Of a stretch of 64,000 bases of DNA, positions 6,304-26,916 are shown one piece after another (position 1 is the stretch's first letter; the number at the start of each line of letters is the position of its first letter). The DNA is from Blastopirellula sp. J2-11. GTDB lineage: Bacteria > Planctomycetota > Planctomycetia > Pirellulales > Pirellulaceae. The stretch covers positions 6,138,001-6,202,000 of the forward strand of contig NZ_CP097384.1 of NCBI RefSeq assembly GCF_024584705.1, written 5' to 3'. The notes beneath the pieces were generated by a model that saw only the letters and a program-made list of their open reading frames with translations, was not told the origin of the DNA and did not search any database. Made by a program: the position numbers and the translations under genes.

Positions 6304-7611
6304 GTGCGCAGTATTCTGTTAGCGCTTGCAATTTTGGTTAGCTGCGCTCTCTTTGCGCAAGCTCAAGATGCTTCGTCGGCAGATCAGTCGCACGCGAACC
6401 TTTCCAAGCAGGTCGCCTATCTCATCCGTCAGCTGGATGCAGGAAGTTTGGCCGAACGGGAAGACGCCGAAGCGGCGCTGACAGAGTTGGGGCCGACAGT
6501 TCTTGACCATTTGCCCGAGATTACCGACCGTACGCCGGCCGAAGTCAAAGCGCGGCTCGAACGGATTACGGCAGTCCTTCAAAAGCAGCAAGCCGACAGC
6601 GTTACGCAGCCGCAGTTGGTGACGCTCGACTTTAAAGAGGCGCCGCTGAGCGAAGTCTTGGCCGCCATCGAAAAGCAGTCGGGCAATCGCATCGTCGACT
6701 TTCGTCCCAATTTCGGCCAACAAACATCGGATCCAAAGATCTCGATCCAATGCGAGAACATCCTCTTTTGGCAAGCGATTGATCGCGTCTTCGCTGACGC
6801 CGATCTCGCCGCCTACGCCTATGCCGGCGAGAAAAACGCGTTGGCTTTCGTCAATCGTGACGCGCCCGGCTTGCCGCTGAACCTGGCGAGCTATACCGGA
6901 GTCTTCCGCGTAGAGCCGACTCGGATCGAGATGCACCGCAATCTGATTCCGCCGATCTCGGATGGGATGCGAATCAATTTGCAGGTGACCTGGGAGCCGC
7001 ACGTTTCACCGATCTTGATCAAGTTTCCCTTTGACGCGCTGGTCGCGGCGGACGATCAAGAGACCGACCTGAAACTTGCCGACGGTCCCGTTTCGTACGA
7101 CGTCGCCGTCGACAGCGGTCAGACCTCGGTTGACTTTGTCATACCGCTCAATTTAGCGCCGCGCGGATCACAGTCGATTGAAAAGTTGCAAGGCAAGTTT
7201 GTTGCGCTGGTCCCCGGACGATTGGAGACGTTCCGATTTGATCGCCTGACCAATGCCCGTGGCCTGCGGCAAGAAAAAGGGGGCGTCCAAGTGGCGCTAG
7301 AGCAATTTCGGAAAAACCGCGACCTGTATGACGCACGCATTGTGGTCCGTTTTCCAGGTGGTTCTGAAGCTTTGCAGTCGCATTTGGGCTGGGTCGATTC
7401 CAACGAAGTTTATTTAGAGACCGCCGACGGTGAGCGCCTGGATCATGCCGGGATCGAGCGATTTCAAGAAGACTCCGACGCAATCGGCATCGCCTACAAA
7501 TTCATCCTTGAAGAACGTGAGCCAGCCGATTTTTCCCTGGTTTACAAAACGCCGGGTTCAATCGTCTCCTTGCCGGTCGATTTCCAGCTAGACGATATTC
7601 CGCTTCCCTAG
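6304..7611 (+). CDS. Secreted protein with STN-like segment, unknown function
   Basis: The 435-residue product begins with GTG and has a clear signal peptide ending near ALFAQAQ. Residues 30-100 form an amphipathic, HEAT-like helical stretch. Residues 105-200 (starting LVTLDFKEAPLSEVLAAIE) resemble the short secretin/TonB N-terminal fold that planctomycetes often place in secreted proteins. The C-terminal 230 residues look like beta-sandwich repeats with no recognised family. It is divergent from the DUF1570 gene and 55 bases upstream of a parvulin gene on the same strand, so a periplasmic folding or envelope role is possible but unproven. Confidence 0.7.
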   Translation: MRSILLALAILVSCALFAQAQDASSADQSHANLSKQVAYLIRQLDAGSLAEREDAEAALTELGPTVLDHLPEITDRTPAEVKARLERITAVLQKQQADSVTQPQLVTLDFKEAPLSEVLAAIEKQSGNRIVDFRPNFGQQTSDPKISIQCENILFWQAIDRVFADADLAAYAYAGEKNALAFVNRDAPGLPLNLASYTGVFRVEPTRIEMHRNLIPPISDGMRINLQVTWEPHVSPILIKFPFDALVAADDQETDLKLADGPVSYDVAVDSGQTSVDFVIPLNLAPRGSQSIEKLQGKFVALVPGRLETFRFDRLTNARGLRQEKGGVQVALEQFRKNRDLYDARIVVRFPGGSEALQSHLGWVDSNEVYLETADGERLDHAGIERFQEDSDAIGIAYKFILEEREPADFSLVYKTPGSIVSLPVDFQLDDIPLP

Positions 7612-7666
7612 AGCGCTGCATTAAACCGACATCCCACATCCTCGCTTCTTAGAGCGATTTATCCAT

Positions 7667-8776
7667 ATGACATTCCAAATCTGGCCGAGTCACATCGTAC
7701 AACTGGCAGTCGTATTCGGTTTGCTGATCTTTGCCGATACGCTCGGACGATCCGGGCATTCCGAAGGGGGAATCGACGAAGAGACCGGGTACATGGACCC
7801 ACGATTCGAATCGATGGATCGTCCTCCCGGCGTCGAAATCGAAGCATTCGTCAATAACGCTCCCATTTATGACGTGGATGTCGAACGCTCTGCCGCGAAA
7901 GCATTTGGCGCGGCCAGCAAAGGGGACCTGGATTTGCCGTTTGGGCTGAAGTCATCCGTTCTCAATCGCCTGATCGATCGCGAGTTGGCGCTGCAGTACG
8001 TCGAATCGACCGACTTCCGCCCTTCGAGTTCGGAGATCAATCGAGAGATCAGTCGCGTGAAGAAAGAACTAGAAGCTCGCGGCAAGTCGCTCGACGCCTA
8101 TTTGGCGGAAAACCATACCGACATGCGCATGTTGCGGCGACGGATCGCCTGGAATATCGCCTGGCCGCGGTATGCAGACGCCAGCCTGACCGACGACAAC
8201 CTGCGTCGCTATTTTGAGCTGCATCGTCGTGACTTTGACGGCACCCAACGCAAGCTCTCGCAGATCTTGCTCACGACCAACGACACGGAACCAAGCCAAG
8301 TGGTGGAACGCCAGCGTGACATCGCCGCGCGTCTGCGTGTTCAGATCAAACGGGGCGAATTCGCGTTTGAGAAAGCAGCACGCAGCTATTCCAATGCGCC
8401 TTCCAGCGAGCAGGGTGGATTGGTCGGTTGGATCGGTCGTCACAACCAACTTCCCGAAGAGATACATAACGCCGCGTTCGACGCGCCACTGGGCGAAGTG
8501 GCCGGGCCAATCCAAACTTCGTTCGGTATCCACCTGATCTGCGTGACGGAAGAAAAGCTGGGCGAGACCCCGTGGGAAGAGGTCAAGCATGAAGTCCGCG
8601 AAGCGGCGGAACGATACTTGTTCTCCTATACCGCCGATCGAGGACGTTCTCAGGCGGATGTGAAATACCGAAACTCTTACGAGTATCCCGAAGAATACAG
8701 GGACTACATGTCGCCCTATCCCGAACCGCGCCATATGGCGCCCTCTTCCACGATGGGCCATAGCGGCGGCATGTAA
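7667..8776 (+). CDS. Parvulin-type peptidylprolyl isomerase, SurA/PrsA-like
   Basis: The 369-residue product has an N-terminal hydrophobic anchor (about residues 5-25), a helical SurA-like chaperone segment (about 60-180) and a PpiC domain (about 190-285). The PpiC signature is clear: GGLVGWIGR, LPEEIHNAAFDAPLGEVAGP and TSFGIHLICV. The first conserved histidine of the domain (usually in a HIL motif) is replaced by Gln in LSQILL, so isomerase activity may be reduced. It probably acts in the periplasm on exported proteins. It follows the 435-residue secreted protein by 55 bases. Confidence 0.85.
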   Translation: MTFQIWPSHIVQLAVVFGLLIFADTLGRSGHSEGGIDEETGYMDPRFESMDRPPGVEIEAFVNNAPIYDVDVERSAAKAFGAASKGDLDLPFGLKSSVLNRLIDRELALQYVESTDFRPSSSEINREISRVKKELEARGKSLDAYLAENHTDMRMLRRRIAWNIAWPRYADASLTDDNLRRYFELHRRDFDGTQRKLSQILLTTNDTEPSQVVERQRDIAARLRVQIKRGEFAFEKAARSYSNAPSSEQGGLVGWIGRHNQLPEEIHNAAFDAPLGEVAGPIQTSFGIHLICVTEEKLGETPWEEVKHEVREAAERYLFSYTADRGRSQADVKYRNSYEYPEEYRDYMSPYPEPRHMAPSSTMGHSGGM

Positions 8777-8838
8777 GCGGGTGATGCGGATGCAAAGCCA
8801 AATCGAAAACGCAAAACCAAACCACAGCAGGCGATCTC

Positions 8839-9090
8839 TTAGCCTGCTTTGTTCTTTTCTTGCAGCTCGCGCAGTTCTTTTCGTCGCAGTTCTTCGTTGT
8901 GGCGATTCGACGCATAGCAAACGGCCATCACGCCCAGGGTAACGAACAAGGAGACGAGGATATAGTTCAGCACCCAGCCGCCGCCAGGCGCGGGCTCCTC
9001 TTCTCCATCTTGGGCGAACAAAATGACCGCGGGCGATAGGACGAACAAAACGGTCAGATAGGTCCAAGCCAAGCGAATTCGCGAGATCAT
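8839..9090 (-). CDS. Small membrane protein, unknown
   Basis: The 83-residue product has a signal-peptide-like start (ISRIRLAWTYLTVLFVLSP), an acidic and proline-rich linker (DGEEEPAPGGG), a second hydrophobic span and a highly charged tail ending NEELRRKELRELQEKNKAG. The start at 9090 places the hydrophobic segment at the N-terminus; a start at 9108 is also possible. The layout of a lumenal loop, one span and a cytoplasmic coiled tail is common in small planctomycete proteins. No function is assigned. Confidence 0.6.
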   Translation of the reverse strand: MISRIRLAWTYLTVLFVLSPAVILFAQDGEEEPAPGGGWVLNYILVSLFVTLGVMAVCYASNRHNEELRRKELRELQEKNKAG

Positions 9091-9390
9091 CGGCGGTCTA
9101 TGCGGCATACGAGGAGCGAAACAAGAGATCGCGTCAGCGGCGATTCCGCATTGCGAGCGAATCCGCATTGTACTCTGACCAGCCGCCCTCGGACAAATGC
9201 GCCCGGTCACAAGTGACGAAAAGCCCGCAAAAAAACCAAGTCACCGGATTGGCATATTCCGTCGTCTCAGGCGAAGTCGAGCAAAAATTCTCAATAACGC
9301 CAAGGAAAAACTCCTTGTCGTCGGCGGTGGATTTATTAGGCTGAACCGTTTGCCCCCGCCCCCATCTTTTCCGACAGAGCGTCCGCCCCC

Positions 9391-11076
9391 ATGGATACGT
9401 CGATCACGATCGTTTCTTTCGTCTTCTTCACCGCGCTGGTCGGCGTCATCACCTGGTGGCTGACCCGCGGCGATCAGCATGGCACGTCGGCCGGTTACTT
9501 TTTGGCGGGCCGCACGCTGACCGGCGGATACATCGCCGGCTCGCTGATGCTGACCAACCTGTCGACGGAGCAATTGGTCGGGCTGAACGGCGCGGCATAC
9601 AAAGATGGCATTTGCGTGATGGCGTGGGAAGTGGTCGCCGCCTTGTCGCTGGTGATTATGGCTCTCTTCTTTTTGCCTCGCTATTTGAAAAGCGGGATCG
9701 CGACGATTCCGGAATTTTTAGAGACGCGATTCAACGAAAGAACGCGTTCGATCACGTCGTTTATCTTTATTTTCGCCTACGCGGGCATCCTTTTGCCGAT
9801 CATCTTATACACGGGCGCGACCGGCATGATTGGGATTCTCGATCTGCAAAACATGCTCGGTCTGGGAGACGTTCCAACCGTCCTGGGAATGGAAACCGAT
9901 TGGTTCCTGCTGTGGGTTGTCGTGTGGTTGATCGGCATCATCGGTTCGATCTATGCAATCTTCGGAGGACTGCGGACCGTCGCCGTTTCGGACACGCTTA
10001 ACGGCTTCGGCTTGTTGGTCGGCGGGGCGCTGATCGTTTGGTTCGGCTTGGCGGCGATTAATGACAAATTCGGCTTCGATGCGCTGAGCAACAACCCCGT
10101 TACGGCGATCGAAACCTTGAAGACGGCGAACCCCGAAAAATTTAACTCGATCGGCGGTCTCGACAGTTCGGTGCCGTTCTCGACACTCTTTACCGGCGTG
10201 CTGCTGCTCAACTTGTTTTATTGGAGCACCAATCAGCAGATCATTCAGCGGACGTTTGGCGCATCGAGCCTGAAAGAAGGGCAAAAGGGAGTGCTGATGG
10301 CCGGATTTTTGAAGATCCTGGCTCCGCTCATCTTGGTGCTGCCTGGCATTATCGCGTATCACCTGTATCACGAAACGCTGCCGATGGAGTCCAAAGACCT
10401 GGCCTACGGCAAGCTGGTGCAGCAGGTGCTGCCGACTCCGCTGGCCGGCTTTTTCGCTGCGGCGATTATGGGGGCGATTCTCAGCTCGTTCAACTCAGCG
10501 CTCAACAGCACGGCGACCCTGTTCAGCTTGGGAGTCTATCAGCACATGATCCGTCCGAGTGCGACCGAGAACGAAGTGATCCGCTCGGGCAAGTGGTTCG
10601 GCACGATCATCGCCGTCACGTCGATGACGGTCGCGCCGCTACTGGCGGGACAGGACAGCATCTTCGGCTATCTGCAAAAGATGAATGGGCTCTATTTCAT
10701 CCCGATTTTCTCGGTCGTTCTGATCGGCCTGTTGACCAAGCGGGTGCCGGCGATTGCGGCGAATATCGCGTTGGTGGTCGGGTTCATTGCGATCGCACTT
10801 GGCTACTTTGTGCCGACGTTGGCCAACTTGTTGGCAGGGCCATTTCGCGAATTTCACTTCCTAGGGGTGGTCTTCGCGTCGTTGATCGTGATGATGTTAA
10901 TCATCGGAGCGATCAAGCCGATGAACACGCCGTACGAACAACAGGATAGCGGCGCGGTCGACATGACCAGCTGGCCACTCGCGTGGCCGGTAGGGATTGG
11001 CTTGATCGTCATCGTGCTGGCGATTTACGGTTACTTCGCCGATTTTAGCGTGCTTTGGACTGCAGCGAGTAACTAA
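9391..11076 (+). CDS. Sodium:solute symporter (SSS/SLC5 family)
   Basis: The 561-residue product has about 14 hydrophobic spans. It shows the SSS hallmarks [20 protein letters not shown] near the N-terminus and [19 protein letters not shown] in the middle, which belongs to the conserved sodium-site region. Length and pattern resemble the SglT-like sugar transporters, but the substrate cannot be assigned. Its stop codon overlaps the start of a small cupin gene by one base (TAATG), so the two are translationally coupled. A sugar or sugar acid is a reasonable guess. Confidence 0.88.
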
Positions 11077-11438
11077 TGGATATCTACAACCTAGACGAGG
11101 TTCCGGCCTTTACGACGAAAGATGGCTCCGAGATTCGCGAGCTGCTGTCGCATCGCAACTCGGCGATTCGACTGCAGAGTCTGGCGGAGGCCCGAATCCC
11201 CATCGGTCGCCAGACGATCGCGCATTATCACAAACGGACTGAAGAGATCTACTACATCACTCAGGGGACCGCCGAGATGAAAATCGACGGCGAAGTCCGT
11301 AACGTGACGGTCGGCGACGCGATCGCGATTCCGCCTGGCGCGACGCATCAGATCACCAACATCGGCGCGGTCGAGCTACGATTGCTCTGCTGCTGTGCGC
11401 CGCCCTACGAAGATCATGATACGATCCTAATGGAATAG
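11076..11438 (+). CDS. Cupin-domain protein
   Basis: The 120-residue product is a single cupin barrel with HYHKRTEEIYYI (cupin motif 1: His, His, Glu) and PPGATHQI (motif 2 His), giving a complete metal site. Three consecutive cysteines (LLCCCAPP) lie after the barrel. Overlap with the symporter gene suggests it acts on or senses the transported solute, as an isomerase or dioxygenase-like enzyme; that is inference. Only this ATG fits the overlap and family length. Confidence 0.85.
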   Translation: MDIYNLDEVPAFTTKDGSEIRELLSHRNSAIRLQSLAEARIPIGRQTIAHYHKRTEEIYYITQGTAEMKIDGEVRNVTVGDAIAIPPGATHQITNIGAVELRLLCCCAPPYEDHDTILME

Positions 11439-11720
11439 AACTGGGCGTCTCACTTTGTAGCCAGCCGTAAGAGGCCTCAGGACCAACCTCACCGTTCCTG
11501 GTGCGCAGGCCGCCTCTTCAAACGGGATGGTAAGCAGCCGATTTTAGACGCATTGCAGAGCGATGCCTCTTACTGACTCTGTCGGCCCCGACAGCGGAGC
11601 TATCGCGGCCAACCCGGGGAAATATCGCAGCTTCAAAGCTCGCGCCTCTGGCTACGTTGGGAAAGAGATTCAGCCGTTGCGGATGATCGATCAGGCTTTG
11701 ATCGGATGGCTCGACTGGGG

Positions 11721-12083
11721 CTACTCCGACGCCTGGGTCAGCGCATCTGCGGCCGCTTGCAGCGATTTCATTTGCGACTTCAAAGCGTCTTTGTCCGCTT
11801 TCTCTTGGTACATCGATTGAAGCTTCAGCGCTTCATCGCGCACTTTGGCGAAACCTTCCCCCCGATCAGATGCGCCTTCGAGAGATTCCAGCATCAAATC
11901 AAGATTCCCTTTGGCGGAACGGGGTGATTTCTCCGCAACGTTAACAAAGTCGGTGACCTGATCATGAACGGACTGGGCGACTTCTGGATTGGTTGTTCCA
12001 ACGCCTTGGCTACCTGGACCGCTGGGGCAACCAGTGCAGAACAGCAAGCAGGCGGCAATAAGAGAAAAGCTGCGAATGAACAT
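11721..12083 (-). CDS. Small lipoprotein, helical
   Basis: The 120-residue product has a lipoprotein signal peptide with the lipobox-like FCTGC near residue 19, then a low-complexity linker and a predicted all-helical C-terminal part rich in Lys, Glu, Gln and Ala. It should be anchored to a membrane facing the periplasm. It lies downstream of a DUF1559 gene on the same strand (137-base gap), a pairing that recurs in planctomycetes. Function unknown. Confidence 0.7.
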   Translation of the reverse strand: MFIRSFSLIAACLLFCTGCPSGPGSQGVGTTNPEVAQSVHDQVTDFVNVAEKSPRSAKGNLDLMLESLEGASDRGEGFAKVRDEALKLQSMYQEKADKDALKSQMKSLQAAADALTQASE

Positions 12084-12219
12084 AGATATACCTGGAATCA
12101 GCGAAATAGCCCAACAAAAAACAAACAGGGCAGCCCGAAGCGAATCGGCAAGCCCATCTGCCTACGTGAAATGGCAGATGGGTCTGAGCAGAACTAACTT
12201 GGAGGATTTAACCTTTGGG

Positions 12220-13179
12220 CTACGGCAGCGTGGTGACGTTGCCATCGGCGATCGCCAGCGCGTTGGCGTAGGTCGTCTGATCGATCGTTTCGGCGACAAA
12301 GCGGCAACTCGCATCGCCCAAACACATGATCACGCCACCGGGATGAAAGCTACGAGCGGCGACTCCGCCGTTCCAGTGCCTATCGGGATCAGAATTTTGG
12401 CCGAAGACCGCTTGATCGGTCTCATTCCCCGAGTAGCTGCTCGCATCCATTCGCTGCTTGGTATTCGGCGTGATGATCATCTCGGGCGAACTGGAAAAAC
12501 TGCGACCCGTGAAAGTTGGACCAGCGGCAAAACCCCACGCGCCGCGATCATCGCCGCCATGGTTCAGAATCATGATCTCGCTAAGAATTATCGAGTTCGA
12601 CGTGCCATCGGTCATGTCACGAAACTTGGCGCCATATTGACCATTCACGTTGAACGCGCCTTTGCGTGCATTGTTGGTGAAGTCATCCGCTTCGTACAAT
12701 AGGCAACCACCCTGGCTGACCGCATAGTTCACCTTGGCGAAACCATTAAAATCTTGCGTCAGAAACGTCGTGACCGCGGGATGACTAGGACACAGAAACG
12801 CATCGGGACGTTGCCGAGTGACTTGGTTATTGGTGGTATTACGAGCCACAACTCCAAAATCATATAGGTCATGCAAGTTCGTTTGCTCCAGGAACGGCAA
12901 GAGCATCAAAGCCCAAGTTGCTCCCCAGTCATCTTCACGCGCAGTTTCGGGCGCGTCCCCAGTTCCTAGCCAAACCGCAGCCGGCGGGAACGAGCCGAAC
13001 GTATCGTGATAGTTGTGCATCGCCAGACCGATCTGCTTTTGCTGATTGGTGCAAGTCATGCGACGAGCCGCTTCGCGGGCTTGTTGAACAGCCGGCAGCA
13101 GCAAGGCAATCAAGACGCCGATGATGGCAATTACTACCAGCAACTCCACCAGGGTGAACCCAGCTCGTTGTTTTTGCAT
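12220..13179 (-). CDS. DUF1559 protein with type IV prepilin N-terminus
   Basis: The 319-residue product starts with a short basic leader cut at GFTLVELLVVIAIIGVLIAL, a textbook prepilin methylation site with the +5 Glu and hydrophobic helix. NYHDTFGSFPPAA and the C-terminal FHPGGVIMCLGDASCRFV are the DUF1559 hallmarks. Such proteins are probably processed by a prepilin peptidase and assembled as pseudopilins, but their function is not established. Two more copies lie at 36665 and 49596. The start is fixed by the prepilin leader. Confidence 0.92.
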   Translation of the reverse strand: MQKQRAGFTLVELLVVIAIIGVLIALLLPAVQQAREAARRMTCTNQQKQIGLAMHNYHDTFGSFPPAAVWLGTGDAPETAREDDWGATWALMLLPFLEQTNLHDLYDFGVVARNTTNNQVTRQRPDAFLCPSHPAVTTFLTQDFNGFAKVNYAVSQGGCLLYEADDFTNNARKGAFNVNGQYGAKFRDMTDGTSNSIILSEIMILNHGGDDRGAWGFAAGPTFTGRSFSSSPEMIITPNTKQRMDASSYSGNETDQAVFGQNSDPDRHWNGGVAARSFHPGGVIMCLGDASCRFVAETIDQTTYANALAIADGNVTTLP

Positions 13180-18927: not shown

Positions 18928-19605
18928 TTACTCTTTTTCACTGGATACCGAGGATGGGATTTCGGACTCGAGCGGCATCAAGGGAACGTCCGCGACAAGC
19001 TCACCCAATAAGCCGGTCGTTACCGCCAAGTCAAACAGACGCGACTTGGTCGTAATCTTGAGCTTGCGAAAGATACTAGAGCGGCGGAACTGGACGGTCC
19101 GCAAACTGAGTTGTATCTGATCCGCGATCTCTTGATTGGTGCGACCCGCGAGCATTAACCGCATCACATGCGATTCTTCTTTGGTCAAGCTTTTTAAGCG
19201 CGTGCGACCAGCGGCGTTTTGCTCAAGATGTTGTTTTCGAGAGTAAGCCGCGCCGACGGCGCTGCGAATCGCAGTGAGCAAGTCTTCGCTACGACATGGT
19301 TTTTGCAACACCGCCGAAGCGCCAATCTGCATCGCTTGCACGATAAGCGCTACTTCAGACGCATCGGTAAGAAAGACCGTCTCGATCGAAACGGGGAGCG
19401 TCTGGACGCGTCTCATCAGATCGAGATGACCGCTATTCAGTTTGAGCAACAGGCAACCGCAGGACCCTGGTGAAAGGAGGTCGAGAAGTTGATCGGATTT
19501 CAGAATCGAGACGAGTGGTAACGAGATCGATTCGACCAATCTTTGGAGCGAATCAATCACCGCAGCATCGTCATCAACGAGGTACAGCGAAGGGACGTTG
19601 GTCAT
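18928..19605 (-). CDS. LuxR/FixJ-type regulator with degenerate receiver
   Basis: The 225-residue product has an N-terminal receiver-fold domain and a C-terminal LuxR HTH (LTKEESHVMRLMLAGRTNQ then EIADQIQLSLRTVQ). The receiver keeps the acidic pocket DDD at 11-13, Thr at 80 and Lys at 102 (QKPC), but the strand-3 phosphoacceptor Asp is replaced by Lys at about residue 55 (CLLLKLNSG). Phosphorylation in the normal way is therefore not expected. No histidine kinase gene is adjacent. The start at 19605 is preferred over 19635 as it gives a normal receiver N-terminus. Confidence 0.82.
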   Translation of the reverse strand: MTNVPSLYLVDDDAAVIDSLQRLVESISLPLVSILKSDQLLDLLSPGSCGCLLLKLNSGHLDLMRRVQTLPVSIETVFLTDASEVALIVQAMQIGASAVLQKPCRSEDLLTAIRSAVGAAYSRKQHLEQNAAGRTRLKSLTKEESHVMRLMLAGRTNQEIADQIQLSLRTVQFRRSSIFRKLKITTKSRLFDLAVTTGLLGELVADVPLMPLESEIPSSVSSEKE

Positions 19606-20042
19606 GGACTTCCAGCTACGGGCAAAATGTCTCACGCCGCGCAGTTCTTCTGCGCTGCTTTCTATGCCGATAGTGTGCTGCCCATAGCTTTGTCATCTCT
19701 AGCATCATCGCTTTGTGCTCTGCATCAAGAACAAAATGTCCCCGATGCGATTCCCGGGCTTACCTGCTGTGCCTGAATCCTGAGCGATGAAACGCTGATT
19801 CTAGAGATGTGATCGAGTGCGACAAGTGGAAGGATTAATGAGACGAATTTTTGGAATGCATGACAACTATAGCATACGAACGCATCGGGAAAAAACCTTA
19901 AATTCGTTAAAAGTCGCCCCCTTCTTGCGCTACATGGGCAAAGTAATGGAGCATCTTTTGCCGAAACAGCGCAGGGGACGCCAAATTGCTTGGCCGAAAA
20001 TAAACAAACGAATTGTTTGGACGCCGGTTCATGTCAGCACAA
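19606..20042. other. Spacer left of the ilvB-tail insertion, no gene recognised
   Basis: An AT-richer stretch from about 19800 to 20042 lies next to the inserted element. Open frames here run into the ilvB-tail duplicate and show no family resemblance. No transposase or integrase fragment was recognised. Confidence 0.35.
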
Positions 20043-20149
20043 AAAGAAAAGCTGGTCAATTTGACCAGCTTTCTTTGCGATGTCAGTTTTTTGGGGACGC
20101 AGGTCGCTTACTCTTTAATGATGTCGTTGACCGTCATGCCGGACGGAAT
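20043..20149. repeat. Left copy of 107-bp direct repeat (ilvB 3' end)
   Basis: This block is identical over 107 bases to 21628-21734. It holds, on the minus strand, the last 13 ilvB codons (ending VNDIIKE), the stop codon and the terminator hairpin. It is cut off from the rest of ilvB, so it is a duplicated tail and not a gene. Sequence diverges abruptly at 20150. To the left a looser similarity (CAGCA-A) extends a few bases. Confidence 0.95.
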
Positions 20150-20181
20150 TGCAAACGACTCGAGATAAAACGGATCAATCG

Positions 20182-20211
20182 TTTCCAATCATTCACCCCC
20201 GAAAGTATACT
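20182..20211 (+). promoter_or_regulatory. Putative promoter of the GIY-YIG gene
   Basis: TTTCCA (20182-20187) and TATACT (20206-20211) are separated by 18 bases and lie 30 bases before the start codon. A GGGGGG run at 20231-20236 precedes the ATG at 20242 as a likely ribosome binding site. Assigned by eye to a housekeeping-sigma consensus. Confidence 0.4.
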
Positions 20212-20241
20212 GCGATCAAACTGCATATCAGGGGGGTCAAA

Positions 20242-21603
20242 ATGGCTATCTTATTTCTCGGCCTGTTTATCTTGGCAATGTTTGGCTGTGCTGGGCTTTT
20301 TTTTTATGCTCAACAAATCGTTGAAAAGAACCACTCTCTTGAGGATCGAATCGATGTCTTGAAAAAATACGAACCTATCGTAAATGTCGAACGGGAGTGC
20401 CAAAGAATTCACTCTGACGCCGTCGAATATGCTCGAACTACTGTTCAAGCGGCGAATAGTGAAGTCGCTGTGTTCCGGGCAGAAATAGAGCAAGCCAAGA
20501 TAGTGGCAGCGCATTACCAGCAGACGGCAGCCGCTATGCAAAATGTTATCGAAGGTTATGGCGCTCAGTATCTTGCATCACCGCATGAATTGCTTGATGA
20601 TCTCGCCACTCATTACGATCATACTTCGGCCGGTGCCGAGCTAAAGAAGGCACGCACCATCTCGAAAGAGATTATTCGAACCGGACGAGCTGCGACATCA
20701 AATGTCGGCGATCCCAATGTGAGGAAGTCCGCCATCGATTTCGTGACGGAAGTTTTCGTAGGAAAGACGGACGCTATCTTGTCTAAGGTCAAAAGCGATA
20801 ACTATGGAATACTGGTGCAGAAACTCGCCGATAGCTTCACGTTGGTGAATCACACTGGCGCAAATTTCGGAAATACTTTCATTACTCCTGAATTCTATGA
20901 AGCCAAACGTCAAGAATTGCAATGGGCGGTCGCCGTACAAGAATTCCGCCAACAAGAAAAAGAAGAGCAGCGACAGATTCGTGAGCAAATGCGAGAGGAA
21001 GAACGCGCGCGACGTGAATTTGAACGTGCTATTCGCGAAGCGGAGGATGAAGAACGGCGACTAAAACAGGCGATGGAACAAGCGAAGCGAGAGCTAGAAT
21101 CCGCTTCTATCGAACAACGTTCCGTCTATGAAGCGAGACTAGCCGAACTGGAGACGAAGCTCGCCGATGCCGAAGCGAAAGGCGAACGAGCAATCTCAAT
21201 GGCCCAGCAGACCAAGCAAGGGAATGTCTATGTCATCTCGAACATCGGTTCCTTTGGCGAAGATGTGTTCAAAGTTGGACTAACGCGACGTCTTGAACCC
21301 ATGGAACGAGTCAAAGAACTTGGCGATGCGAGCGTCCCCTTTTCTTTTGATGTGCATGCCATGATTCCAAGCGAAAATGCACCGGCGCTCGAAGCGGAAC
21401 TTCATCGGCGATTCGCCGCATATCAGGTAAACAAGATTAACTTCCGCAAAGAATTTTTCCGTATCAAAATCGAGCAAATCAAAGAAGTCGCTGAAGAGAT
21501 GGGATACAAGGTGCATTGGACGATGAAAGCATCTGCGGAAGAATATTACGAATCACAAAACATCGAGAATCAATCGGCCGTTGAAGATGTTATGACTATG
21601 TGA
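20242..21603 (+). CDS. DUF4041-like coiled-coil protein with C-terminal GIY-YIG (T5orf172) domain
   Basis: The 453-residue product has an N-terminal membrane span (about 1-24), a helical DUF4041-like region (about 40-230) and a long charged coiled coil (about 240-320, rich in EE, RR and KR). The C-terminal T5orf172/MUG113 GIY-YIG nuclease-type domain (about 327-420) shows VYVIS, FKVGLTRR and the Glu of LEAELHRRF, matching the GIY, YIG, Arg and Glu positions. The family occurs in phages and defence-related islands. It is the only gene of an insertion next to ilvB. A nuclease role is inferred; the membrane anchor is unusual. The ATG at 20242 follows a G-rich ribosome binding site. Confidence 0.8.
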   Translation: MAILFLGLFILAMFGCAGLFFYAQQIVEKNHSLEDRIDVLKKYEPIVNVERECQRIHSDAVEYARTTVQAANSEVAVFRAEIEQAKIVAAHYQQTAAAMQNVIEGYGAQYLASPHELLDDLATHYDHTSAGAELKKARTISKEIIRTGRAATSNVGDPNVRKSAIDFVTEVFVGKTDAILSKVKSDNYGILVQKLADSFTLVNHTGANFGNTFITPEFYEAKRQELQWAVAVQEFRQQEKEEQRQIREQMREEERARREFERAIREAEDEERRLKQAMEQAKRELESASIEQRSVYEARLAELETKLADAEAKGERAISMAQQTKQGNVYVISNIGSFGEDVFKVGLTRRLEPMERVKELGDASVPFSFDVHAMIPSENAPALEAELHRRFAAYQVNKINFRKEFFRIKIEQIKEVAEEMGYKVHWTMKASAEEYYESQNIENQSAVEDVMTM

Positions 21604-21627
21604 TTTGAAAAAATTGCGTGCAGCAAT

Positions 21628-21661
21628 AAAGAAAAGCTGGTCAATTTGACCAGCTTTCTTT
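21628..21661 (-). terminator. ilvB intrinsic terminator
   Basis: A 10-bp stem (AAAGCTGGTC and GACCAGCTTT) with loop AATTT is flanked by A-rich and T-rich runs, so it can work in both directions. It lies 32 bases after the ilvB stop and 24 bases after the stop of the opposing GIY-YIG gene. An identical hairpin exists at 20043-20076 in the duplicated tail. Confidence 0.8.
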
Positions 21662-21734
21662 GCGATGTCAGTTTTTTGGGGACGCAGGTCGCTTACTCTT
21701 TAATGATGTCGTTGACCGTCATGCCGGACGGAAT
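21628..21734. repeat. Right copy of 107-bp direct repeat (native ilvB 3' end)
   Basis: Identical to 20043-20149. This copy is continuous with the intact ilvB gene: 21693-21734 encodes the IlvB C-terminus and 21628-21661 its terminator. Confidence 0.95.
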
Positions 21735-23456
21735 CATCGGCAACACTTGTTCTTGGTACGGGACTTGGACGTCCAGCACGTAAGGCCCGTCGTAATTGAT
21801 CATCTCTTCGATTGCGGCCCGCAGTTCGGACTTGCGACTGACCGTCGCGCCGCCGCAGCCGAAGCCTTTGGCGATCATCACGAAGTCCGGGTAGCGTTCA
21901 GCGGCGTAACGTTCGTTACCATCGCCGGTCGCTTCCGGATGGTGAACCGGGCCCAGATAGGTGTGGGCGCGGTTGCCGGACATGAAACGATCTTCCCACT
22001 GCACGACCATGCCGAGATGCTGGTTGTTGAGCAGCATCACTTTGACCGGCAGTTTTTCGCAGAAGCAGGTCGCCAACTCTTGGATGTTCATCGTGAAGCT
22101 GCCGTCCCCTTCGATGTCGATGCACAACGCGTCAGGGAATGCGACCTGAGCGCCCATCGCGGCCGGCAGACCGAAGCCCATCGTCCCCAGGCCGCTACTG
22201 CTGAGCCACGTGCGGGGCTGCTTGAACTTGTAGAACTGCGCGGCCCACATTTGATGCTGGCCGACGCCGACCGAGATGATCGTCTCACGCTCTTTGCAAA
22301 TCGCGTTCAACTCGGCGATCGCATGTTGCTGCAGGATACCGTCAAACGACGTATCGTACTTCAACGGCTCGTCTTTCTTCCACTTGGCGCACTGTGCGAC
22401 CCATTCTGAAATGTCTTCCGGCTTCTCGACAATATCGCACAGCATGCGCAGCGCCGGTTTCAGGTCGCTGACGACCGGGAAGTGAGCCAGCTTGTTCTTG
22501 TTGATCTCGGACGGATCAATGTCGATATGGATGATCTTCGCTTGCTTGGCGAACTCGGCCAGTTTGCCGGTCACGCGATCGTCAAAGCGAACGCCCAGCG
22601 AAATCAGCAAGTCGCAATTTTGCACCGCGTAGTTCGCGTAAACCGTACCGTGCATCCCCAGCATGTCCATGCTGAGCGGATCGTCGCCGGGAAAGCTGCC
22701 GAGCCCCATCACCGTGGTCGTGATCGGAATGCCGGTCTTTTCGACCAACTCTCGCAGCTCTTCCGAAGCGCCCGAGGTGATGATGCCGCCGCCGGAGTAG
22801 ATCATCGGACGTTTGGCCCGCTTGATCGCCGCGGCGATTTGCTTGATCTGTTCCGGCTTGGCCGTACGGACTTCATAGTTGTAGCCCGGCAGATTCATCG
22901 GACAGTCCCAATCAGGAACAATCTGCTCTAGCTGGACATCTTTCGGAATGTCGATCAACACCGGACCAGGACGACCCGTCGAAGCGATATGGAACGCTTC
23001 TTTCATGATCCGGGTCAAGTCGGCAATGTCGGTCACTAGGTAGTGATGTTTGGTGATGCCGCGACAAACTTCGACGATCGGCGTTTCCTGAAACGCGTCT
23101 GAACCGATGACGGCTCGCGGCACTTGAGCGGTGATCGCGACCATCGGGATGCTGTCAAGCTTGGCGTCGGCGATCGCCGTCACCAGATTGGTTGCGCCCG
23201 GTCCGCTGGTCGCCATGCAAACGCCGACTTTGCCGGTGGTGCGCGCGACGCCTTGAGCGGCGAAACCGCCCCCTTGTTCGTGCCGCGGCAGGATCGTGCG
23301 GATCTTGTCTTTGTAGCGCGTCAGCGCCTGGTGCAACGGCATGCTGCAACCGCCGGGGTAGGCGAAGATGACATCTACGCCGTGCCGTACCAACGATTCG
23401 ATCATGATGTCAGCGCCAAGCATCAGTCCCGTGTCGGTAGCGGTAGTAGCGTTCAC
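21693..23456 (-). CDS. ilvB: Acetolactate synthase large subunit
   Basis: IlvB condenses two pyruvates, or pyruvate with 2-oxobutyrate, using thiamine diphosphate, the first common step of valine, leucine and isoleucine synthesis. The 587-residue product has the N-terminal catalytic-Glu region ([15 protein letters not shown]), the central FAD-binding region and the C-terminal ThDP motif [15 protein letters not shown]. The GTG at 23456 is preferred: it gives normal length and has GGAG upstream, whereas the open frame reaches back to 23606 without family similarity. The small subunit ilvH is not adjacent. The terminal 13 codons are duplicated at 20108-20149. Confidence 0.95.
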
Positions 23457-23482
23457 CTTTTTCAACTCCGTAGCAGTAACAG

Positions 23483-25347: not shown

Positions 25348-26916
25348 ATGATCGACCAAATACCAACCATCCTGGGCCTGACCGTCGCCGTTTTTCTGGT
25401 GATGTCGATTGGGGGCTCGGCGCGGCATCTCGGCTGGCTAACTCGCGAAGCCGACGAGGGGATGCTGAAGCTCTGCATCCGCGTCCTCGTCCCGTGTCTG
25501 ATCTTTCGCTCCGTCGTCGGTAATCCGGCGTTCGATGACGCGACCAATATCTACATGCCGCCGCTGTTTGGTTTTGTCAGCGTCGCCGGCGGAACCTTGA
25601 TCGCGGCCTGGATCGCCAAAGCGACCGGTCGCTGGACCGGGATGCTCGACGCCAAGACCTTTAGCTCCTTCGGCGTCTGCGTCGGCATCTTCAACTATGG
25701 TTTTGTCCCGTTGCCGCTGGTCGAAAAACTGTTTGGTGAAGAGGCGCTCGGCGTTCTCTTTCTCCACAATGTCGGCGTCGAACTGGCGATCTGGACCGTT
25801 TGCGTCGGCCTCATCGCCGGCGGGCTGTCGAAAGGTTGGTGGAAGCATGTGCTGAACCCGCCGAGCATTACCATCGTGGTCGCGCTGTCGGTTAACTTTC
25901 TGGGATTGGGGCCGTACATTCCTGAGATGATCCAGCAGGTCATGATAACGCTCAGCGCAGCTGCCATCCCGATGATGATGTTGCTGATCGGGGCGAACTT
26001 CTTTGATCAGATCACCGGCGCTGATGACAGCAACGGCGAGAGTGAGAGCTTTTGGGGAACAGCGACATTGGCGGTGCTGCTTCGGTGCGGCGTCTTTCCG
26101 CTGTTCTATCTTACGGCCGCGGCGCTATTGCCGATCTCACGCGAATTAAAACAAGTCGCTGCAATCGAAGCGGCGATGCCGGCCGCTGTCTTTCCGATCG
26201 TGCTGACGCGACTTTACGGGGGCGAACCACGGATCGCGTTGCGAGTCACAATCGCGACAACGATTATCGGCCTAGTGACGATCCCCCTGTGGATCTCGTC
26301 AGCGATCGGAGTACTGGGGCTGGAAGATTCCTTGATTCACGGCAACGTGCAAAGCGAAAAGTCGCCTGCCGACGTCGAACCACCGAAAGCGACCGCTCCT
26401 CACACCAAAACGCCGGCGACCGTTCCCCCGGCCAATGCGCCAGCCAAAGATGCGGCCGCGCTCGGTCCAGAAGTGGTGGAGATCAACGCCCAAACGATCG
26501 CCGGATTAAAAGTACGCACCAACAACCTGAGCGAAACGAATTCGCTCACCGGCAAGATCAGCAACCTCTACCGGCGCTACTTCACGGAGAAGATCGCCGA
26601 CCTGCTGCCAAATCCTTCGCCACGCTACGCTGTCTATCACAACTATCAACAGCAGAGCCAAGGGGACTACGTCCTGCTGGTCGGCGGCGCCGTTAATCAG
26701 GTGACCAGCGATCAACTTGCAACGGCGACCATTGCGTCGGGCAAATACCTGAAATTCCGCGCTCACGGCAAACAACCGCAAGCCGTGATTGACGCCTGGC
26801 AAGAGATCGCCGCCTACTTCCCCAATAGCCCGCACCGCCGAGCCTATACGACCGATTTTGAGCGTTACGACGACCAATCTCCCGATATGGTCGAAATTTT
26901 CGTTGCGATCGAGTAA
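25348..26916 (+). CDS. AEC-family transporter fused to GyrI-like effector-binding domain
   Basis: Residues 1-325 form an auxin-efflux-carrier (AEC) permease of about ten spans. A Pro/Ala/Lys-rich linker follows (about 330-370). Residues 375-522 are a soluble domain resembling the GyrI-like/integron Cass2 effector-binding fold: VEINAQTIAGLKVRTNN, LYRRYFTEKIADLLPN, YAVYHNY, GKYLKFRAHGKQPQAVID, AYTTDFERYDD and VEIFVAIE. That fold binds small, often cationic molecules. Its fusion to a permease is unusual and suggests ligand-gated export or capture; this is inference. The frame is continuous with no sign of an assembly join. Which side of the membrane the domain faces is not determined. Confidence 0.8.
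   Translation: MIDQIPTILGLTVAVFLVMSIGGSARHLGWLTREADEGMLKLCIRVLVPCLIFRSVVGNPAFDDATNIYMPPLFGFVSVAGGTLIAAWIAKATGRWTGMLDAKTFSSFGVCVGIFNYGFVPLPLVEKLFGEEALGVLFLHNVGVELAIWTVCVGLIAGGLSKGWWKHVLNPPSITIVVALSVNFLGLGPYIPEMIQQVMITLSAAAIPMMMLLIGANFFDQITGADDSNGESESFWGTATLAVLLRCGVFPLFYLTAAALLPISRELKQVAAIEAAMPAAVFPIVLTRLYGGEPRIALRVTIATTIIGLVTIPLWISSAIGVLGLEDSLIHGNVQSEKSPADVEPPKATAPHTKTPATVPPANAPAKDAAALGPEVVEINAQTIAGLKVRTNNLSETNSLTGKISNLYRRYFTEKIADLLPNPSPRYAVYHNYQQQSQGDYVLLVGGAVNQVTSDQLATATIASGKYLKFRAHGKQPQAVIDAWQEIAAYFPNSPHRRAYTTDFERYDDQSPDMVEIFVAIE

Follow-up and report, generated by a model that had tools for sequence, protein, structure and literature searches.

A SNIPE homologue between identical copies of the ilvB tail in Blastopirellula sp. 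J2-11, and how it may have arrived there

The ilvB 3′ end and its insert

The locus described here lies in the genome of Blastopirellula sp. J2-11 (GCF_024584705.1), in a window (the whole stretch of DNA that was analysed) of 64,000 nt spanning positions 6,138,001-6,202,000 of the forward strand of NZ_CP097384.1. Within it, the 3′ end of a gene that we take to be ilvB, for the large subunit of acetolactate synthase, is present twice, as two direct repeats of 107 bp (20043-20149 and 21628-21734) that are 100% identical, have a spacing of 1585 and enclose an insert of 1478 bp with one gene (Table 1). On the minus strand, the final 13 codons of ilvB and its stop (42 coding bases) form part of each copy, the remainder being downstream sequence with a palindromic, terminator-like hairpin. 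Copy 2 runs on into an intact ilvB and copy 1 is a detached tail. The initial annotation had described this anatomy (two identical 107-bp repeats, each with 13 codons, stop and terminator, around a 1478-bp insert with a single gene), and it proved exact to the base. The enclosed gene, a homologue of the anti-phage nuclease SNIPE, has 92 bp of insert before its ATG and 24 bp from its stop to copy 2; an alternative, longer frame is listed from a TTG at 20149.

Since the match over 107 bp is exact and the second-longest exact repeat within the window is just 22 bp, the repeat pair is not due to chance. Nor is the 107-bp sequence a dispersed repeat, as it is present twice in the genome, its own palindrome apart. 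No further copy of the unit was found in this genome (a single contig of 6.43 Mb) at E ≤ 0.001, the other matches being those of the hairpin on its own reverse strand only. The composition of the insert is foreign to this genome and AT-rich, with a GC content of 47.2% versus 56.9% in the sampled genome and 1 of 1081 sampled windows equally low. Rfam gave no match at gathering scores across 19600-21800. Two further signals, a CAGCA match close to the left junction and extended pairing between the repeat and the right end of the insert, were judged to be chance.

Table 1. Features at the ilvB 3′ end of Blastopirellula sp. J2-11 (positions are those of the window)
Feature	Position	Strand	Basis or remark
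Left neighbour, LuxR-type response regulator	18931..19602	-	Context
Repeat copy 1, detached ilvB tail (last 13 codons, stop, terminator)	20043..20149	.	100% identity to 21628-21734
Palindromic bidirectional terminator-like hairpin, copy 1; outer edge = left edge of the repeat	20043..20076	.	34-bp inverted self-match, 91%
Insert, 1478 bp, missing from three same-genus genomes	20150..21627	.	Genome comparison, GC
Weak match to a sigma-70-like promoter, leader of the insert	20182..20211	+	9/12; 3 such in the region versus 2.0 expected, not significant
SNIPE (PD-Lambda-1) homologue, 453 aa from ATG	20242..21603	+	N-terminal hydrophobic segment, DUF4041, GIY-YIG (MUG113/T5orf172), E384
Repeat copy 2, tail of the intact ilvB; starts 24 bp past the SNIPE stop	21628..21734	.	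Repeat match, empty-site comparison
Terminator-like hairpin, copy 2; SNIPE and ilvB converge on it	21628..21661	.	Inverted self-match
Intact ilvB (start codon provisional), 99% identical in aa sequence to that of G002	21693..23459	-	TPP-enzyme domains by Pfam

The insert gene

Judged by its sequence, the insert gene is a homologue of the SNIPE/PD-lambda-1 anti-phage nuclease, and its product, whose function is of a known kind, is cargo and not a mobiliser. The protein matches the PADLOC PD-Lambda-1 profile PDLC03976 (E 8.3e-111) over residues 26-446 of 453 and contains DUF4041 (PF13250, 33.4 bits, cut-off 27) and a GIY-YIG domain of the MUG113/T5orf172 kind (PF10544, 59.2 bits, cut-off 20; PF13455, 66.4 bits, cut-off 22.3). 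Residues 3-21 are strongly hydrophobic by hydropathy only (Kyte-Doolittle mean 2.57). The gene had been annotated as a membrane-anchored DUF4041/T5orf172 GIY-YIG gene, which agrees with these domain scores and with the N-terminal hydrophobic segment. The protein is 34% identical to PD-lambda-1 of phage PhiR26_1, and none of the solved structures matched the protein by sequence. Residue E384 aligns with the catalytic E414 of SNIPE, a glutamate that is invariant in 8/8 aligned sequences; the numbering is that of the 500-aa PhiR26_1 protein (in which residue 414 is E), assumed to be equivalent to the 500-aa protein of the SNIPE paper.

PD-lambda-1 has been renamed SNIPE. It is described as a nuclease bound to the membrane that cleaves phage DNA as this is being injected, and it is toxic when its membrane segment is missing, a result that its authors interpret as cleavage of the host's DNA (PMC13190303). 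The insert protein would be expected to sit in the membrane and to cut phage DNA at entry. SNIPE matches are patchily distributed, being found in 9/59 other relatives (E ≤ 0.001) and in 24/392 genomes across the phylum, J2-11 among them (E ≤ 1e-40).

Empty sites, recombinases and flanking repeats at other loci

Three other genomes of the genus (G001, G002 and G003), whose ilvB products are 93-99% identical in amino acid sequence, each have one copy of the ilvB tail at the site, and a SNIPE match at E ≤ 0.001 is present in 0/3. These empty sites come from other species, one genome of the J2-11 species having been analysed. The closest of them, G002, aligns across the site, such that the DNA left of copy 1 continues directly through the tail into ilvB, with no loss of sequence visible at the insertion point by this comparison. 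The earlier reading of the locus as an insertion with a duplicated gene tail is thus upheld by single-copy empty sites in all three. Both 107-bp copies differ from the G002 tail at 12/107 positions, and since these differences are common to the two copies, the source of the extra copy was the same lineage or a conspecific rather than some distant donor. With 0 differences between the copies in 107 bp, versus 12 expected at the age of the G002 split, the insertion would fall in the last quarter of that time, a date on which we do not rely because recombination between the copies can keep them identical.

A search with the whole unit across 241 genomes of the family, own included (best 2 candidates per genome), gave as other matches the SNIPE coding part (65-74% identity over at least 90 bp; 80-86% over two stretches of 36-69 bp) or ilvB tails. 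In 20 relatives, the ilvB tail had no second copy within the 11-19 kb of downstream DNA available for each, the only matches being of 24-25 bp (in L191); hence ilvB finds no support as an integration hotspot. Separately, in G001 long exact repeats that look intergenic are present as three copies in ~3 kb, ~9 kb before ilvB (L251, G001:C3:1001-21000, positions 7240-10464).

The unit itself has no recombinase gene, and that no integrase is seen in it had been noted at the outset: its one ORF, the SNIPE homologue, fills the 1478-bp insert, in which there is no integrase remnant either. Among the Pfam matches of the seven proteins encoded at 15.5-26.9 kb of the window, ilvB included, there is likewise no recombinase. 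In the same part of the window, a single open frame (25348-26913, plus strand) joins a Mem_trans transporter domain to a GyrI-like/Cass2 effector-binding domain. The genome-wide search, which covered Phage_integrase and Resolvase domains, found seven Phage_integrase genes, the nearest ~94 kb from the unit, and two Resolvase genes, both >1.5 Mb away. Around all seven Phage_integrase genes, nothing like the 107-bp repeat was found, the unit itself apart; the best match outside the unit (E 0.005) lies within ilvB itself and the next has E 0.037 over 19 bp. An attachment site common to the unit and the genome's other integrases was therefore not seen around these seven. Capture by Ku-dependent (classical) end joining is unlikely, as a Ku gene was not found in this genome. 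The genome also holds a CRISPR-like array (G000:C1:3515486-3519049, L253) with the repeat GTCGCTCCCTGCGCGGGAGCGTGGATTGAAAC.

Flanking repeats of at least 50 bp and at least 83% identity were sought at other SNIPE loci. A first set of 80 loci, less 16 duplicates and 3 that were too short, left 61, window included; to these were added 8 plasmid or phage loci (9 less the duplicate L272, from a sample of 15 records taken from 185 plasmid and 37 phage records) and 8 further loci, making 77 distinct loci, 20 of which have one flank of <1 kb, in which a repeat could escape detection. At this threshold 73/77 loci have no flanking repeats, and the four that do are the window, a Marinomonas locus (L045, 65 bp, 97%), a Tenacibaculum locus (L048, 76 bp, 86%) and L097 (54 bp, 83%). 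Shorter repeats are found at L275 (46 bp, 85%), at L046 (26 bp, 96%) and at seven others (15-28 bp). By comparison, parts of three genomes were sampled for ORFs of 300-700 aa, SNIPE genes excluded, and 7/594 have such flanks, the four in the J2-11 genome being a paralogous pair, two internally repetitive regions and a mosaic region. Enrichment at SNIPE genes is not significant (3/76, window excluded, versus 7/594; one-sided Fisher P 0.094), and BLAST word size and E limit differ between the two sets. The initial annotation had proposed a look for other DUF4041-T5orf172 genes bounded by repeats; among the other SNIPE loci, 3/76 are of this kind, one of them clean (Marinomonas). At L097 (1414-2226), what lies between the repeats is a truncated SNIPE homologue of 270 aa that lacks its N-terminal part, and the repeat may be a dispersed one. 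As a separate observation, a mosaic region of the J2-11 genome (G000:C1:1029248-1041283; L132, L133) holds a 745-bp perfect duplication in which a gene for 115 aa lies, together with a 150-bp repeat present three times and a transposase-like gene, presumably IS4-like.

In Marinomonas, the SNIPE gene lies between two 65-bp hairpin repeats, which were found only there in its genome (best 12 of 17 candidates), and the unit sits between a gene that is presumably a chemotaxis receptor and a tRNA cluster. This tRNA-Leu/Cys/Gly cluster is itself duplicated in tandem beside the unit (L045:7681-8317 and L248:10452-11093). A second Marinomonas genome (G665) is arranged in the same way, and its two repeat copies are identical. 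The two genomes have different bases at one position, where the copies within each genome nevertheless agree, and this one informative site suggests that the copies recombine with each other. The insertion was matched in 2/48 genomes, both occupied. In Tenacibaculum, terminator-like repeats that resemble one another are found in six positions, for the most part following successive single genes, one of which is SNIPE (L109, G645:C7:90000-109000, positions 7556-12933). Strong matches to them are confined to that region (genome-wide, best 40 of 74 candidates), and the genome of L048 holds many intergenic repeats. Because of this repeat series and the repeat-rich genome, the case is ambiguous.

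In both the window and Marinomonas, the repeat starts exactly at the outer stem edge of the hairpin that follows the SNIPE stop, and 3/5 further copies in Tenacibaculum align from that same edge. It is conceivable, if doubtful, that hairpin-bounded capture of single genes is a general integrase-free route by which defence genes enter chromosomes, in which the insertion of single genes and the duplication of the terminator would be due to some yet unnamed activity or to replication that stalls at hairpins. We treat this as just a lead because two exact edge coincidences are few and one of them is at a weak hairpin, that of Marinomonas (z -1.49; 12/200 shuffles fold equally well).

Origin of the unit and comparison with known systems

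In light of the unit having no recombinase of its own, how might a foreign gene have come to lie between two copies of a host gene tail? The explanation that we favour, to which we give an even chance, is that the SNIPE gene and a short leader were captured at the ilvB 3′ end by integrase-independent recombination, for example by template switching during replication or repair, in an event that duplicated 107 bp of resident sequence. A switch 107 bp backwards while copying would give exactly the observed product, although a specific signature of such a switch is absent here. The duplication would keep ilvB and its terminator intact while supplying the SNIPE gene with a terminator. In support of capture, the repeat is an exact copy of the lineage's own tail and the flanks are continuous with the G002 empty site; the foreign composition of the insert and the patchy occurrence of SNIPE matches speak for it as well. 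Once in place, the unit would be removable by homologous recombination between the identical 107-bp arms, which would restore the empty site, and the same arms could allow it to be re-inserted or exchanged between cells of one species. We infer excision because the arms are long enough and because a locus of like build in Salmonella excises.

The main rival, which we consider unlikely though it deserves to be taken seriously, is a non-autonomous or decayed integrative element, where a tyrosine recombinase acting in trans, or since deleted, used an attachment site in the ilvB 3′ end. Integrative elements usually duplicate the tail of the gene they enter and leave that gene intact, and this footprint is what the attL/attR-like repeats and the intact ilvB resemble; moreover, the near-perfect palindrome in the repeat could be a core site, and, besides its seven Phage_integrase genes, the genome contains one clear example of such an element, at tRNA-Val. 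Against these points, the insert is drawn tightly around one gene, without a recombinase or a remnant of one, nothing resembling the repeat accompanies the seven integrases, and the 20 ilvB tails give no sign that relatives reuse the site. The same observations leave the satellite or cargo moved in trans, and the excision remnant, that had been offered initially without anything pointing to them. For the Salmonella locus, too, an integrase is still possible according to the passage on its mechanism, in which identical direct repeats such as ours (107 bp, 1.5 kb apart) are, by extension, expected RecA substrates (PMC12074656). This last expectation, the excision seen between similar repeats in that same account and the homogenised look of the Marinomonas copies all speak against a one-off accident, in which the duplication would have arisen at insertion and the unit become fixed in the strain with no later mobility. 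Such an accident, though improbable, fits with most SNIPE loci having no repeats and with the rarity of comparable pairs: in 864 kb of this genome other near repeats with both copies non-coding occur only in one repeat-rich mosaic region, and a further 400 kb has, as exact repeats of at least 36 bp, only a CRISPR-like array and one 37-bp pair.

Two other explanations are rejected. T5orf172-type GIY-YIG domains are found in homing nucleases, and mobilisation of the gene by its own product had been put forward in the initial annotation. This is very improbable, given that the match to SNIPE spans most of the protein and that only 4/77 loci are bounded by repeats of at least 50 bp, so that the gene is not regularly flanked by a duplicated target; SNIPE, moreover, acts on phage DNA and is toxic in its membrane-less form, as cited above. 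Least probable of all, to the point of being negligible, is an integron cassette bounded by attC sites, whose core motifs are GTTRRRY and RYYYAAC. A single gene between hairpin-bearing repeats has the look of one, and the Marinomonas repeats do hold GTTRRRY (GTTGAAT, GTTAGGC), though no RYYYAAC on the same strand; however, both motifs are absent from the window repeats and 20 bp to either side on both strands, and the repeat is a host coding tail.

What is already known, then, is SNIPE and, separately, repeat-bounded single-gene units; what is new is a defence gene in such a unit, with a repeat that consists of a host gene tail and its terminator. Among the matches listed in a search of titles and abstract openings, with subscription papers and preprints outside its scope, none described an integrase-less defence gene between duplicated gene tails. 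The unit bears on a wider question, namely by what means a lone defence gene travels when no gene for mobility is in sight, and it makes this question testable, as it has one such gene in 1.5 kb, its identical arms are long and the empty site in sister species is clean.

The insert gene shares with SNIPE/PD-lambda-1 the N-terminal membrane segment, DUF4041 and the GIY-YIG domain with its catalytic glutamate, but known SNIPE genes, as far as these sources describe them, are spread over many clades and phages, whereas this one is a repeat-bounded unit; the term "direct repeat" is absent from the main text of both sources, and no repeat-bounded unit is described there under that name (PMC13190303, PMC9519451). 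Phage morons are also comparable, such as gp19 of phage ES18, a SNIPE homologue annotated as a "possible moron" with a putative terminator after it. It is likewise a single-gene unit that ends in a terminator and has no recombinase gene of its own, but the window unit lies in the chromosome, between direct copies of its target, a repeat that ES18 does not have. Within the J2-11 genome itself, the element at tRNA-Val (gac) (G000:C1:269066-279025; L258, L259) resembles the ilvB unit in having a duplicated gene tail at both ends and an intact target gene. It differs in having its own tyrosine integrase (at 270084), a length of ~10 kb and 46-bp direct repeats, versus no integrase, 1.5 kb and a 107-bp repeat at ilvB.

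The nearest precedent is wzy (rfc) of S. Typhimurium, where the relevant passages report a 2558-bp deletion between identical 113-bp direct repeats, attL and attR; excision is precise and attL-dependent, the circle was detected by PCR and reversion was seen in co-culture (PMC12074656). The mechanism is not known to its authors, who found no matching site-specific recombinase target and name RecA as a possible mediator (PMC12074656). In view of this locus, the suggestion in the initial annotation that the ilvB unit could be an undescribed minimal element was too strong: both consist of one cargo gene (in a 2.6-kb unit at wzy) between identical direct repeats of ~110 bp, with no recombinase identified and with relevance to phage. 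The differences are that the repeat at ilvB is a gene tail with terminator, that the window unit is known from sequence alone whereas excision and circle were seen at wzy, and that the cargo there is a phage-receptor gene, whose loss protects, and here a defence gene. If units such as this one pop in and out, defence would be reversibly gained and lost in a population, as a counterpart to the reversible loss of the wzy receptor gene in Salmonella.
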